Part shown: one piece after another, positions 48,090 through 53,877 of the stretch
Numbering within the stretch: the first letter of the stretch is position 1
Layout: each line of letters starts with the position of its first letter
Assembly (NCBI RefSeq): GCF_014844135.1
Contig: NZ_CP041403.1
Span: 248,001-312,000 of the forward strand
Origin: Arcobacter sp. FWKO B
GTDB lineage: Bacteria > Campylobacterota > Campylobacteria > Campylobacterales > Arcobacteraceae
DNA length: 64,000 nucleotides
Reading direction: 5' to 3'
Notes under the pieces: generated by a model
What the model was told of the DNA's origin: nothing
Database searches by the model: none
What the model saw: the letters and a program-made list of their open reading frames with translations, nothing else
Translations under genes and position numbers: made by a program

Positions 48090-48668
48090 TTACTTTTCGT
48101 AATAATCACGATTTGATTCTCTTGAAAAATACCCTTCAAAAAAATTTCTATCAATCAAACTTTTATCTATTCTTTCATTAAACTGTATTGATTTATCAAG
48201 TAAATAACATTCATCACAAATTTTTGTTACAAAACTGCCATCATAATCTATCAAAAACAAATCACTACTCACATCATAAGTATGAACAAAATAAAACTCT
48301 TTGCCATCTTTGGCATACAAGAAGATATTGTACTTATCTTTTTTGAAAGTCTTGATTAATTGTAATTTCTTAATGTTTAAATTCAGGAAGTTTTGATAAA
48401 AGCTACTTGATAATCCATTCCATTGACACTGAGAATGAAGTTTTATATACTCAAGGTGAAGATTGACATCATCTATAGTAAATCCATCAAACACACAAGA
48501 GTCAAATCTATGGATTTTCTTTGGATTTTTGAGTTCTATTATATTTGTACTATCTTTATCAGTTATATATATGGCATTTTGCGAAAACTGCATATAAGGA
48601 GTATGGCTACAACCACTTAACAAAAGTATAAACATTAATATAGCAAAGATTTTTACTATTTTTATCAT
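48090..48668 (-). CDS. Hypothetical lipoprotein (192 aa)
   Basis: 192 residues. Signal peptide with lipobox MFILLLSGCSHTPYMQF, so exported and lipid-anchored. The mature part has two Cys near FVTKICDECYLL and no recognised domain. Overlaps the DNA methyltransferase gene by 4 bases, which puts a surface/periplasmic lipoprotein in the same transcript as a restriction system; the pairing may be accidental. Confidence 0.7.
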   Translation of the reverse strand: MIKIVKIFAILMFILLLSGCSHTPYMQFSQNAIYITDKDSTNIIELKNPKKIHRFDSCVFDGFTIDDVNLHLEYIKLHSQCQWNGLSSSFYQNFLNLNIKKLQLIKTFKKDKYNIFLYAKDGKEFYFVHTYDVSSDLFLIDYDGSFVTKICDECYLLDKSIQFNERIDKSLIDRNFFEGYFSRESNRDYYEK

Positions 48669-49444
48669 TTCATAAGCCTATCTTCTATGATTTTAATATA
48701 TTTTTCCTCTTTTTCTATACCAATATATTTTCTATTGTATTTTTTAGCAACTGCTACAGTTGTGCCACTTCCACAAAAAGGGTCAAGTATTATATCATTT
48801 TCATTTGAAAACCCAAGTACAATTCTTTTTAACATTTCTTCTGGTTTTTGAGTGGGATGGGCGGCTTTATTGGTTTCTTTATCTCTTATTCTCTCTTTAC
48901 CTTGAACCAAAGGTAAATTCCAAACATCTTTCATTTGTTTATTTGTTCCGTCTTGTTGTTTGTCAGGATTTAGTTCTTTTAAAATATCATAATTAAAAAC
49001 CCAACCCTTACCCTTAACTGCCCAAATCACAAACTCTGTACTATGAGTTAAGACTCTTCTTGTAACATTTGGCATTGCGTTTGTTTTGTTCCAAGTGATT
49101 ATATTTTTAACTTCCAAACCGTTAGCTTTTAGGCTCATTATTGATTCACCGATATTATGATAACTACAAGCTATAAATATAGACCCATTTGGTTTTAAAA
49201 TATTTCTACAAGCTTTTACCCAATCATTGGTAAAATGGATAAATTCTGTTTCATCCATTTTATCCCAGTCCTCATTTACCATTGACCAATCGCCACCTGT
49301 TTTGCTACCTACCGTTTTAAGTCCATTTCCTGATAAATTATATGGGGGGTCAGCAAATATTAACTGGATACTCTCTTTTTCAATTTTGTTTATATTGTTT
49401 AAAACCTCAAGGCAATCACCTTGGTATATTTGATTTAACTGCAT
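48665..49444 (-). CDS. Beta-class N6-adenine/N4-cytosine DNA methyltransferase
   Basis: 259 residues. Catalytic motif IV FADPPYNLSGNG comes first (residues 31-40), motif I (DPFCGSGTTVAVAKKYNRKYIGIE) last (about 220-243), the beta-group order; AHPTQKPEEMLKRIV is motif X-like. Short central target-recognition region. Partner of the AlwI-family endonuclease gene it overlaps by 10 bases; expected to protect one strand of the recognition site. Confidence 0.93.
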   Translation of the reverse strand: MQLNQIYQGDCLEVLNNINKIEKESIQLIFADPPYNLSGNGLKTVGSKTGGDWSMVNEDWDKMDETEFIHFTNDWVKACRNILKPNGSIFIACSYHNIGESIMSLKANGLEVKNIITWNKTNAMPNVTRRVLTHSTEFVIWAVKGKGWVFNYDILKELNPDKQQDGTNKQMKDVWNLPLVQGKERIRDKETNKAAHPTQKPEEMLKRIVLGFSNENDIILDPFCGSGTTVAVAKKYNRKYIGIEKEEKYIKIIEDRLMK

Positions 49445-51867
49445 AATAACTCTTGCTTAAAATTATTGAGTACTGTAGGTATTGTTCTTAACCATTCATC
49501 TGAGTTAGCAACGCTATTTTTTAATCCAACAATTTCATCCAAAAATTGTTTAAACATTAGATGAGAAAATGATTTATTTTGTAGTTTTAATGTTTTAATA
49601 GTTTCAAGGATTTGGATAATCTGAGAAATATTCAAAGGTATAATTTTTTGAGGATTACCCTCATATTCATATTTTACCGACATCCAAAAAGTATTGATTG
49701 TATCACGGTGCATAGAAGGAGCCACAAATAAGCAGTAATTATCTTGATGACTAGAAACATTTTCAAAATCCCTAAAGTGTCTCATAACTGGTTGCCCTTC
49801 ATTATGCCATTGGTCACGATTTATAAGCATAGTAACTTCACATACAGAATTAAAGCTTTCATAAAAACATTCAATATCAGGCTTATTTGCAGGTGCTGTA
49901 AAAATAAAATCATTATCATCACTTAAAATAGAATTAGCTTTAATCTCATTTGCATCGTTAATAATATTTAAAGCGTGTGTAATGTATTTTTCAAGTGCAA
50001 TGCTCGGTTTTAAATCTTGAGTTCTAATATTAGTTAGTTTATCTATTACTTCATCTATTTGTGATACATCTTGTAACTGTTGTTTTAATTCAATATTTTG
50101 TAACTTATGTCTATATTCCCTTAGCTTTTCTATCTCTGATTTTAAATACTCTATCTCTTCATTTTCAAGAGAAAATGGATAAGTGTCCATTGACATTTGT
50201 GCTTCCAAGTTTCTTATATCATCTAGTGTGCTACGATAAATTTTTAGAAGTTCATTTTTTTCCTCCCAAGGCAATATTGGCTGATTAATATCTGACATAT
50301 AGGCGATATAGTCATCTCTTGTAAATTCTTTAGCACTTGCATTATCTGTTTCTAAAAGCTTTTGAATCTCTATCATTCTTCTAGGTTCTAAATCTATATA
50401 AAATCCACCACCTCTAACAGTAATATATCTTGTAAGCCTAAAATATCTTATTGTATTGTCAGCATAATCGTGTAGATTGCCATCCGTGGCATTATCAAAT
50501 TCACTCAAAAAATTAGCTATATAATTAATAATATATTCTTTTTTCTCATCACTATTTTGCAGTGAGTCAAGAGTAATTCTAAACTCTACAAGTCTTTCAG
50601 CTTGTAAGCTTATATCTTGATAGTGTAGTAAACTTTGCCCAAAAATCATAAATTCTTGTTTTGAAATACCTTTAACTCTTAAATTTCTTTGTTCACATAT
50701 CTTATTAACTTCATTTATAAGATGTAAAGTAGCAATAAATGGTTTTATGTTATAAATACTTTGATTACTAAAATCCCTTGATTCTGGATTTGGATATTGC
50801 CATTTAATAAAACTTCTAAAAAATATTTCTCCAATATCATAATTATCACCTAGTAAATAATTTCCCAAGGAAGAGATTTTAATTTTGCCATTTTGTATAA
50901 ATGCAAGTCCAACTTTTTCAAGCGGTTTATATGAAGTTCTTCCTCGAATAGCAAAACCTTCAGGATAGTTTTTTTCTCGTAAAATATTAAATGCCTCGGT
51001 TAGTGAAATGTGATGATTTAAATTTTCTATTAATTGCACTGTTGCTTGGGACAGAGTAGAATAAAACTGTCCATTTGAATATCCATAAAATCTATTTTTT
51101 ACAAGTCTTGCTTGAAATTCTTCTTGCGATTGTGAATTCCAAACTTCTCCCTCCATTTCTTTTAGAGTTATTAAAAAATTTCTTAATCTTTCAGGGTTTC
51201 TTACTGCTGTTGCAATTGACCAAAGTTTTTTCATAGATTTCCTTTGTTTTCTAAATTTTAATAACTCTTTTTTTAATTGAGGTAAATTATTATTCAACTC
51301 TTGGAATTTTTCGTTGAAGAAGTTTAAATCATCTAAACCAAACCAATCGATATTAGAAATAATAAAAAGTTGACGATTTCTTTTGATTTCCAAGTATTCT
51401 TGAAAATTAATCAGTTGACTAACTTGTATCAATTTTATTGTATGGAAGCATAATTTAAGTCTCTTATCATCTTCTTTTAGAATACTATTACCATATATGC
51501 TATTTATTAATTTCATCATAAATTGATAGTTAACTATCAATTTATCTATTAAAGTATTTAAATCAATGTTAGACATATTTTGAATTTGTTTAATATATTT
51601 TTCAACATTTATATATTCTTCTTTTTTTAAATTAATAAAAACAAATCTTTGTTTTCTGTAATCTAATTTACTAAAAGAATATATACTTAGTAATGATAAA
51701 TCAAATTTAATACTATTATCATTTTTTGAAAAAAACTTATACTGTTTATTGAAAGATTGAAAGTTATAAAAAAACACATAAGTTAAATTTATTTTATGAA
51801 GTTTATTTGAGGAATTTAATTTTTCAAATACATCATTTAATTTTTGTAGATAAGGGTCTACTTTCAT
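49435..51867 (-). CDS. AlwI-family type II restriction endonuclease
   Basis: 810 residues. The segment SIATAVRNPERLRNFLITLK and EMEGEVWNSQSQEEFQARLV followed by NRFYGYS is characteristic of AlwI-type enzymes. The PD-(D/E)xK-like core is near residue 664: NKPDIECFYESFNSVCEVTM and QWHNEGQPVMRHFRDF. AlwI recognises asymmetric GGATC and cuts outside it; specificity here is not proven. Longer than typical members because of an N-terminal region of about 200 residues without recognised domain. Flanked by two methyltransferase genes with overlaps. Confidence 0.85.
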   Translation of the reverse strand: MKVDPYLQKLNDVFEKLNSSNKLHKINLTYVFFYNFQSFNKQYKFFSKNDNSIKFDLSLLSIYSFSKLDYRKQRFVFINLKKEEYINVEKYIKQIQNMSNIDLNTLIDKLIVNYQFMMKLINSIYGNSILKEDDKRLKLCFHTIKLIQVSQLINFQEYLEIKRNRQLFIISNIDWFGLDDLNFFNEKFQELNNNLPQLKKELLKFRKQRKSMKKLWSIATAVRNPERLRNFLITLKEMEGEVWNSQSQEEFQARLVKNRFYGYSNGQFYSTLSQATVQLIENLNHHISLTEAFNILREKNYPEGFAIRGRTSYKPLEKVGLAFIQNGKIKISSLGNYLLGDNYDIGEIFFRSFIKWQYPNPESRDFSNQSIYNIKPFIATLHLINEVNKICEQRNLRVKGISKQEFMIFGQSLLHYQDISLQAERLVEFRITLDSLQNSDEKKEYIINYIANFLSEFDNATDGNLHDYADNTIRYFRLTRYITVRGGGFYIDLEPRRMIEIQKLLETDNASAKEFTRDDYIAYMSDINQPILPWEEKNELLKIYRSTLDDIRNLEAQMSMDTYPFSLENEEIEYLKSEIEKLREYRHKLQNIELKQQLQDVSQIDEVIDKLTNIRTQDLKPSIALEKYITHALNIINDANEIKANSILSDDNDFIFTAPANKPDIECFYESFNSVCEVTMLINRDQWHNEGQPVMRHFRDFENVSSHQDNYCLFVAPSMHRDTINTFWMSVKYEYEGNPQKIIPLNISQIIQILETIKTLKLQNKSFSHLMFKQFLDEIVGLKNSVANSDEWLRTIPTVLNNFKQELLCS

Positions 51868-53699
51868 CGTTCAACCTCCACAAAAAATACTCTCTCTTTA
51901 TTGTCCCCTCTATCGCTCTTACCAGTTGTAAATTCTTTATAATCTTGTTCAAATATCTCTGGCGTTCCTCTTTTGCTTAAAATATACATGATGTCCTCAT
52001 CTTTTATTCTTGCATTAGAACGGTTATTTCCCTTGTCTGCCATATTATTATATGAGAAAAGGATATACTTACACTTGGCATTTTGTATCAGGTCAGCAAA
52101 TGCTTTTGTTGCAGTTTTTAGGCTATATTCACTTTTGAGATGAGTTCTATCAAATTTTTTGGCTTCACCATGAACTTCAGGTTTTTCCCATCGCATTATA
52201 TTTTCGAGTAAATGATAAGAGTCACTATATTGTCTTGAATTGTATGGAGGGTCTATGTATAGTACATCACACTCTATTTGTCTAATCAATGTGTTTGCGT
52301 CAAGATTATAAATCTCATTTTTAGTATTGAAGTCATAATGAATATTTGGCATTTTTAAAACAAAGTTTTCGACCTTGATTTCTTTTTTGATATAAGCATC
52401 ATAATGACCTACCGTATTTGCTATCCTATCCATAGCATATAACAATGATGTTAGTAAAATTGATTTTTCATCAAAATTTATTTTTCCAGATAAAAAAAGT
52501 TGATTTATTTTTTCTCTTATTTCACCTATTTTTTTTGAAGTTTCTAAACTAAAATATCTATCACCGAAATTTTCTGATACATAGTTATTACCCAATGTGC
52601 TTATACTGTTAAGTTCTTGTAAAATTCCCAATATTTTAGACTCATCAATATTCTTAGAACCTAAAAATGAATGTAATGACAAATAATTGCTATACAATAA
52701 ATCATTAGTAATTATTTTATTGGTTTTTGTATTGTAATGATGACCAACTACACCTGTACCGCCGAAAATATCGCAAAAACTTTCAAAATAAGGTATTTTA
52801 GATTTTACAACTTTATCTATCAAATTCAAAACATTATACTTATTGCCTAAATATCTTCTTTGATTAATATTGATTTTGTTTTCATTGGTTACTTTTATTT
52901 TAATACTAGTTGATGAAATAATAGATTTGATTGATATAGGCTCGTCATAATAAAAATCAAATAAAGATTTCTGAACAGCACCTTGTCTTACATAAAAATC
53001 GTTATTACTACATTCTATATTGTTTTCTTTTGCTAAACTTTCTTTTAAGCTTAAAATCCCATCAGATGATACTATAAGATGGTCAATCAAAGCTATACCC
53101 ATAATCTTACAAGCTTCATCTATAGTTTTAGTAATCATAATATCTTTTTCTGATGGATTTGAATCTCCAAAAGGATGGTTATGTGCCAAAATAATAGCTG
53201 TAGCTCTATGCTCCAACGCTGGTGCTATTATCTCTCTAGGATGAATTAAACTTGTATCTACAGTACCTATACTAATAACCTCTTTAAAAAGAAGATGATT
53301 AGTAGGACTAAGATAAAAAGCTATTAAATGCTCCTTTTTAAGATTTTTATATTCCTGCAAGTCAGTTTCTAGGTCTTTTGGTGATGTTATTTGTTTTTTT
53401 ATAGTATCAGTGATTAACATTCGTTTTGCTAACTCAAATGAACACTCTAGCAACATAGCCTTGACTTCACCTATGCCTTTTTCTTTCATAAGTTCTTTGT
53501 AGCTCGTATTTACAAGATTAGAGGAATATTTTTTTATAATTGTTTTTGAAATCTCAGATACATTCTTGCCTTCTATTCCAGAACCTAAAAGAATAGCCAA
53601 TAGTTCATCATTTGTTAAAGCATTTACACCATATTTTTTAAATTTCTCTCTAGGACGCAAAGCAAATGGTATCTCTTTTATTGTTGAGTGTTTTGTCAC
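51864..53699 (-). CDS. RadC-D12-class adenine methyltransferase fusion
   Basis: 611 residues. Residues 1-225 form a full RadC/UPF0758 protein: helix-hairpin-helix (MKEKGIGEVKAMLLECSFELAKR) and JAB/MPN metal site LAHNHPFGDSNPSEKD (H173, H175, D186). After a linker (225-275), residues 278-611 are an alpha-class D12 (Dam-like) methyltransferase: NQRRYLGNKYNVL, FCDIFGGTGVVG (motif I) and YIDPPYNSRQYSDSYH (motif IV). First gene of the restriction operon; overlaps the endonuclease gene by 4 bases. The MTase half probably modifies the second strand; what RadC adds is unknown. Confidence 0.9.
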   Translation of the reverse strand: MTKHSTIKEIPFALRPREKFKKYGVNALTNDELLAILLGSGIEGKNVSEISKTIIKKYSSNLVNTSYKELMKEKGIGEVKAMLLECSFELAKRMLITDTIKKQITSPKDLETDLQEYKNLKKEHLIAFYLSPTNHLLFKEVISIGTVDTSLIHPREIIAPALEHRATAIILAHNHPFGDSNPSEKDIMITKTIDEACKIMGIALIDHLIVSSDGILSLKESLAKENNIECSNNDFYVRQGAVQKSLFDFYYDEPISIKSIISSTSIKIKVTNENKININQRRYLGNKYNVLNLIDKVVKSKIPYFESFCDIFGGTGVVGHHYNTKTNKIITNDLLYSNYLSLHSFLGSKNIDESKILGILQELNSISTLGNNYVSENFGDRYFSLETSKKIGEIREKINQLFLSGKINFDEKSILLTSLLYAMDRIANTVGHYDAYIKKEIKVENFVLKMPNIHYDFNTKNEIYNLDANTLIRQIECDVLYIDPPYNSRQYSDSYHLLENIMRWEKPEVHGEAKKFDRTHLKSEYSLKTATKAFADLIQNAKCKYILFSYNNMADKGNNRSNARIKDEDIMYILSKRGTPEIFEQDYKEFTTGKSDRGDNKERVFFVEVER

Positions 53700-53877
53700 T
53701 AATAAACCTTATTTACAATATTGCAGTATAAATATTTGTAAAACATACACATACAATTGATTATTTGTTAAAAGTATATATTTAATAAAGGATTATACTA
53801 TAATATATATAAAAATATAAGAAGTAAGATTAAAAAGTAATAAAAAGTTTTATTTTATGCATTGGGTTACCTTTAAT

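Follow-up and report, generated by a model that had tools for sequence, protein, structure and literature searches.

Type IIS restriction-modification (R-M) systems of the AlwI/N.BspD6I type combine an AlwI-family endonuclease with two methyltransferases. On plasmids of Staphylococcus, Priestia and Helicobacter, relatives of the D12 class adenine methyltransferase adjoin such AlwI endonucleases, the D12 enzyme standing alone or within a longer methyltransferase protein, and none of these three systems has a RadC. RadC (UPF0758) proteins are widespread and their function has been disputed for decades. Here we describe a locus in a 64,000-nucleotide window of the Arcobacter sp. FWKO B genome (NZ_CP041403.1, positions 248,001 to 312,000) where the D12 methyltransferase of an R-M cassette is the second half of a RadC-linker-D12 fusion protein. 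What is new here is a RadC module with a clamp-like linker in an otherwise known Type IIS kind of R-M system. RadC domains joined to a DNA-acting enzyme are also found in RadC-like DinG (PMC11981726) and in RadC-bearing polyvalent proteins (PMC5512222), but in the cited sections those are helicases or multi-domain mobile-element proteins, whereas the fusion is the modification enzyme of an R-M system and bears a clamp-like motif. RadC has further been linked with antirestriction genes (PMC12458937) and with ArdC-N and helicases (PMC5512222, PMC11981726), and the literature consulted showed no link with modification enzymes. A report of a RadC-methyltransferase fusion was likewise not found in the open-licence literature, which cannot show that none exists. 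The natural fusion, its docking-like motif and the neighbourhood link of RadC with Type I and Type IIS systems together make the role of RadC directly testable.

The preliminary description of this DNA had read the frame as a complete RadC with an intact metal site joined to a complete D12 methyltransferase in a restriction operon, and the coordinates, strand, domains and operon all proved right (Table 1). Specifically, the RadC part matches UPF0758_N (8e-21) and RadC/JAB (4e-36) in Pfam, with PF04002 and PF20582 both above cut-off, and scores 206.8 bits with the NCBIfam equivalog NF000642, which has a 180-bit cut-off. The JAMM-type ligands H173, H175, S183 and D186 are all there and are invariant in 21 of 21 aligned RadCs, which suggests that the JAB domain may be active. 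After a linker of about 50 residues, the frame matches MethyltransfD12 at residues 283-541 (1e-28; PF02086 at 100.7 bits against a 22-bit cut-off) and includes the DPPY motif. Foldseek gives E. coli Dam as the best matches of this part, and a comparison by sequence of the D12 profile with solved structures found no relative. The protein is like the RadC family in having both domains, a score above the equivalog cut-off and the 2qlc fold. It is unlike the family in that 44 stand-alone frames stop near residue 222, where the linker and methyltransferase continue here, so that it fails the usual, though not strictly defining, criterion that a RadC ends after the JAB domain. The open reading frame (ORF) encodes a fusion protein, one part of which is RadC, rather than a plain RadC, and its RadC is the sole RadC match in the source genome, which is one 2.24 Mb contig.

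We also considered whether a sequencing or frame artefact merges two genes. Nothing was found in favour of this idea, and it is ruled out, to the point of a negligible residual chance, by a frame that is open in four assemblies (this one, 612 codons in genome G093, 614 in G071, and 590 to the contig end in the L003/G310 frame), by a conserved junction and by the lack of a usual start codon for a separate methyltransferase. With regard to the last point, the junction DNA has an ATG at codon 200 and a TTG at codon 204, and the next ATG, GTG or TTG is the TTG at codon 291, which lies beyond RRYLGNK, a conserved methyltransferase block at residues 281-287. Since codons 205-290 contain none of these triplets, only an unusual start codon could give the methyltransferase separately from the fusion. 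Neither of the two possibilities raised in the preliminary description, an internal start near residue 270 and a frame error, is thus borne out.

The fusion is genuine and recurrent. We found three further fusions in Campylobacterota, two with a D12 and one with a cytosine-5 methyltransferase; the four hosts represent four families of one order. Among 100 relatives, the full-length fusion of G093 is 69% identical over residues 2-610 and that of G071 is 44% identical over residues 5-610, while L003 (JAFGFU010000035.1) has a RadC that is 67% identical and is joined to a cytosine-5 methyltransferase (PF00145, 4e-64). The G071 fusion is followed by another D12 enzyme and then an AlwI-like endonuclease, the G093 fusion by a gene, cut by the contig end, that is 35% identical to a Priestia AlwI-family endonuclease, and the L003 contig ends with the fusion frame. 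The L003 fusion frame is closely preceded by a ThiF-family gene (L003:5283-6001), possibly one with a plain housekeeping role. RadC is present in 74 of 398 genomes of the order; the four fusion frames have 590-614 codons, the longest of the others has 299, and no fusion genome has a second RadC match. No further fusion was found among 104 genomes of the Arcobacter family apart from that of the window, nor in the families of G093 (3 genomes), G310 (44) and G071 (2) beyond those three. In 397 genomes of the phylum there is no other strong RadC match in a frame longer than 337 codons; weak matches of about 18-22 bits in long frames belong to other proteins. Plasmid and phage records gave no match spanning 80% of the fusion query, and a first profile scan of IMG/VR confirmed no fusion. 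A second IMG/VR scan returned 80 RadC loci, of which 69 had frames recognised by pattern, none with a tail of more than 40 residues, with the other 11 loci unjudged; 19 IMG/VR loci with D12 relatives had no RadC ahead.

Phylogenetic analysis shows the fusions to be modular. In a tree of 47 RadC sequences (4 fused and 43 solo, one of 48 frames being too short and left out) those from the fusions group together in a single clade (99/99), with G071 on a long branch. For the methyltransferases, a 22-domain tree rejects monophyly of the three D12 domains from fusions (approximately unbiased test, p 0.00056), and the D12 enzyme of G071 is sister to a solo enzyme (100/99). The D12 tree and the cytosine-5 case together indicate that a single RadC lineage has been combined with three or more lineages of methyltransferase. 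Repeated fusion and domain exchange both fit such RadC/methyltransferase recombination, and the trees cannot separate them.

Solo RadC genes of Campylobacterota also stand beside R-M genes. Using blastp seeds, we found that 31 of 40 neighbourhoods of about 14 kb contain R-M genes, chiefly of Type I, compared with 0 of 34 control neighbourhoods placed some 100-300 kb away in the same genomes (Fisher 7e-13) and 4 of 32 centred on hand-picked integrases of middling score in the same genomes (Fisher 2.5e-8); these values treat kin genomes as independent and hence overstate independence. The 40 loci were hand-picked from RadC lists for contig room and are thus non-random and redundant (9 are of one genus), and two are cut by contig ends. 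Excluding the three loci that supplied the seed proteins (L265, L275, L276) leaves 28 of 37, and 16 of 19 genera have at least one R-M-positive RadC locus. For 25 of the 31 positive loci, RadC has its nearest R-M gene downstream and in the same orientation, within 300 bases in 10. Pfam shows, for example, RadC followed by HsdM, a Schlafen-type gene and HsdS at L046, RadC followed by HsdR at L048, and HsdM near RadC at L050. Ten from among the weakest or most distant R-M hits were re-checked in PADLOC, and all of them had matches to R-M models, to Type I endonucleases or, in the case of the cytosine methylase 5 kb from RadC at L249, most closely to a DISARM methylase. A scan of ten neighbours at the nine loci lacking an R-M hit gave some defence matches. 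Defence-like genes at RadC loci without an R-M seed match include an HKD plus Snf2 helicase gene (L273:8465-11740) and an IetA-like gene (L274:7563-9320).

In the fusion and in most solo loci alike, RadC comes first and a methyltransferase or endonuclease follows, and we read the fusion as the stable form of a working RadC/R-M partnership. The best reading of RadC in Campylobacterota is that it is an R-M partner. The link may be special to this phylum, as six RadC plasmid records of other phyla (hand-picked from 40 listed) have no annotated R-M gene within 6 kb; their neighbours are coaBC in four, metabolic genes in one, and E2-like and ThiF genes in one. The last is a Cytobacillus plasmid (L323:1929-6621) where genes annotated as ThiF adenylyltransferase and prokaryotic E2 stand about 1 to 4 kb upstream of radC, an arrangement that suggests a ubiquitin-like context. 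A different explanation is that RadC merely travels with defence islands as a passenger and that the fusion, without any role in modification, is read-through that the cell tolerates, in keeping with there being only four fusions among all the RadC-bearing genomes and with the occurrence of RadC on mobile elements with antirestriction genes in the cited part of PMC12458937. Four observations argue against a passenger, which we regard as distinctly unlikely: the low R-M frequency around integrases, the preferred orientation of solo RadC, the pairing of one RadC lineage with unrelated methyltransferases, and the conservation of the RadC ligands and of an island in the linker whose flanks are not conserved.

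Along the linker, identity of the window's fusion to those of G093, L003 and G071 is 7, 14 and 21% at residues 222-235, rises to 71, 79 and 64% at residues 236-249 (the island), and falls to 21, 4 and 25% at residues 250-273. Within the island all four linkers have the motif Q-x-[ST]-L-F (QKSLF, QRSLF, QKSLF and QKTLF), keeping Q, L and F with S or T at position 3. The ORFs of the loci examined, 92,721 residues in all, contain the pattern Q.[STD]LF 6 times, and 4 of these are the fusion linkers; none of the 44 solo RadC frames has a tail able to hold the motif. Model confidence is low across residues 243-271, which overlap the island (predicted local distance difference test, pLDDT, below 50), and the linker is probably flexible. 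The motif resembles the consensus of sliding-clamp-binding peptides, QL[S/D]LF, in which positions 1, 4 and 5 are described as most important and in which, for DnaE1, the second position is the one that is not conserved (cited part of PMC3919608), and also the transposase clamp motif QLxLF (cited part of PMC4549789). Like the clamp binders DnaE/PolC (PMC3919608) and insertion sequence transposases (PMC4549789), the fusions have a short Q-x-x-L-F peptide that matches at positions 1, 4 and 5. Host DnaE proteins have SLFG at the likely place of the motif in 7 of 9 examined, that of the source genome included.

Several points weigh against the clamp reading. Position 2 is K or R and not the consensus L, for which reason we file the fusion as resembling a clamp-binding protein and not as one, its clamp binding being putative. 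The Q is missing in the 7 host DnaEs with SLFG, and the other 2 of 9 (G074 and G071, the latter itself a fusion host) lack an SLFG-like string. All four linkers descend with a single RadC clade, so that their conservation represents one history and not four, and the model draws the island as a low-confidence helix. Only four fusions were found, with two of the four loci cut by contig ends. Finally, solo RadCs stand beside Type I systems without such a tail, so clamp docking is not the general reason for the RadC link. Given both sides, we consider the island a putative docking peptide and its clamp motif reading reasonable but unproven.

With this caveat, the fused form probably docks its methyltransferase at the replication clamp. 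As a whole, the explanation that we prefer, and hold tentatively at somewhat short of an even chance, is that the fusion serves as the modification enzyme in a mobile, Type IIS-like cassette, equipped with a RadC module and clamp-docked by its linker. The linker island would bind the DNA sliding clamp and hold the methyltransferase at freshly replicated DNA, with the RadC HhH domain helping to grip the DNA, and new sites would be marked before the partner endonuclease could cut. Such marking would matter where a cassette is lethal to cells whose modification falls behind. The JAB domain may process something in addition. If true, the clamp reading would show how a selfish restriction system keeps newly copied host DNA protected. 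The replication-associated methyltransferases M.BceJIII and M.EcoGIX (PMC7736820) are like the proposed enzyme in that modification is tied to replication, there with DNA polymerase I as partner. They are unlike it in being single-strand specific and plasmid-borne, and in the cited part of that paper RadC goes unmentioned and a clamp link is merely suggested. A broader and rather doubtful version of the proposal is that RadC in Campylobacterota is a dedicated R-M partner and not a housekeeping repair protein, with the fused lineage coupling modification to replication through a clamp-binding linker as a bacterial counterpart of clamp-guided maintenance methylation. A dedicated partnership of this kind would, if true, give RadC its first concrete cellular role.

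Structure models bear on two other explanations, both of which assign an activity to RadC. When modelled with viral RadC rows in the alignment, the RadC part has a pLDDT mostly of about 90 and its best PDB match is the RadC structure 2qlc (Z 18.9); in a full-length model made without a useful alignment for it, the RadC part has a pLDDT of about 35 and carries no meaning. The HhH domain resembles those of XPF/Hef (Z about 7.5), which, with the intact metal ligands and the R-M neighbourhood, fits the idea that RadC processes DNA (ends, nicks or branched intermediates left by the endonuclease, or replication structures) so that the host survives restriction breaks. We regard this as unlikely, as the literature consulted reports no nuclease activity, the JAB fold outside RadC matches mainly JAMM/MPN proteins (Z 9.1 or less), E. 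coli radC mutants are described as normally sensitive to DNA damage in the cited part of PMC11981726, and the linker island would be left unexplained. Alternatively, RadC could act on R-M proteins as a controlling peptidase or isopeptidase of the JAMM type, for instance freeing the methyltransferase or turning over the endonuclease. The JAMM ligands, the nearest non-RadC folds, BubCD and JAMM peptidases (a likeness in fold only), and the one plasmid RadC near E2-like and ThiF genes speak for a peptidase, but RadC is unlikely to have a groove for a ubiquitin tail according to Iyer and colleagues (cited part of PMC5512222) and the cassette has no ubiquitin-like gene, making this role improbable in our view. 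The preliminary description had tied RadC to DNA modification or defence, a view strengthened by the four fusions, the two unrelated methyltransferase classes and the solo loci. Its further suggestions of break processing or protein de-modification are possible, neither being favoured, and the conserved linker motif points to putative docking at the replication clamp rather than to either of them.

Table 1. Features of the RadC-methyltransferase fusion and its cassette, in window positions.
Feature	Position	Strand	Remarks
RadC-linker-D12 methyltransferase fusion, 611 residues	51864..53699	(-)	GTG start at 53699, stop at 51864; cassette gene 1; full-length homologous frames in G093 and G071
RadC part: UPF0758_N/HhH (residues 7-82) and JAB/JAMM domain (residues 105-220)	53040..53681	(-)	Pfam, NCBIfam, model
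Linker, residues 222-273, low model confidence	52881..53036	(-)	pLDDT <50 at residues 243-271
Conserved island, residues 236-249, with QKSLF (residues 243-247; 52959-52973); putative sliding-clamp-binding peptide	52953..52994	(-)	Identity to 3 other fusions
D12 class N6-adenine DNA methyltransferase part, residues 274-611	51867..52880	(-)	Pfam PF02086; DPPY 483-486; Foldseek best match E. coli Dam
AlwI-family restriction/nicking endonuclease, 810 residues	49435..51867	(-)	PF09491 1.7e-73, 248.6 bits; overlaps fusion gene by 4 bases
Second methyltransferase, N6/N4 class, CcrM-like	48665..49444	(-)	PF01555 7.8e-61; NF050803 below cut-off
Inserted cassette between lipoprotein gene and htpG	48671..53845	n/a	Edges good to about 20 bases

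The genes downstream of the fusion place the cassette in a known kind, Type IIS R-M of the AlwI family, with an endonuclease that would cut outside its site and may either nick or cut both strands. The endonuclease and N6/N4 methyltransferase genes follow on the same strand, the latter overlapping its preceding gene by 10 bases, and GGAGGT is present just 5' of the endonuclease start. PADLOC assigns the endonuclease to Type II nicking endonucleases (8e-116), and comparison with the PDB matches N.BspD6I (1.8e-26). The cassette has two methyltransferases (D12 and N6/N4), as an asymmetric site would need. In three genomes of the same genus (G001, G002 and G003) the lipoprotein gene directly adjoins htpG, indicating that about 5.2 kb, holding exactly the three cassette genes, was inserted here. 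No terminal repeats were seen at the cassette edges, and no phage or conjugation gene lies inside it. These three genomes have no RadC match, which with the insertion rules out that a host RadC gained a downstream methyltransferase by chance.

Some further observations concern the relatives of these enzymes. About 205 N-terminal residues of the endonuclease have no Pfam match and are missing from AlwI homologues. The D12 relative on the Helicobacter pylori plasmid pY95 (L092:4265-5290) is mostly without annotation along its length. Two other D12 relatives, of 672 and 636 residues (L041:7523-9541 in G090 and L051:6605-8515 in G035), are seemingly fused to a second methyltransferase domain.

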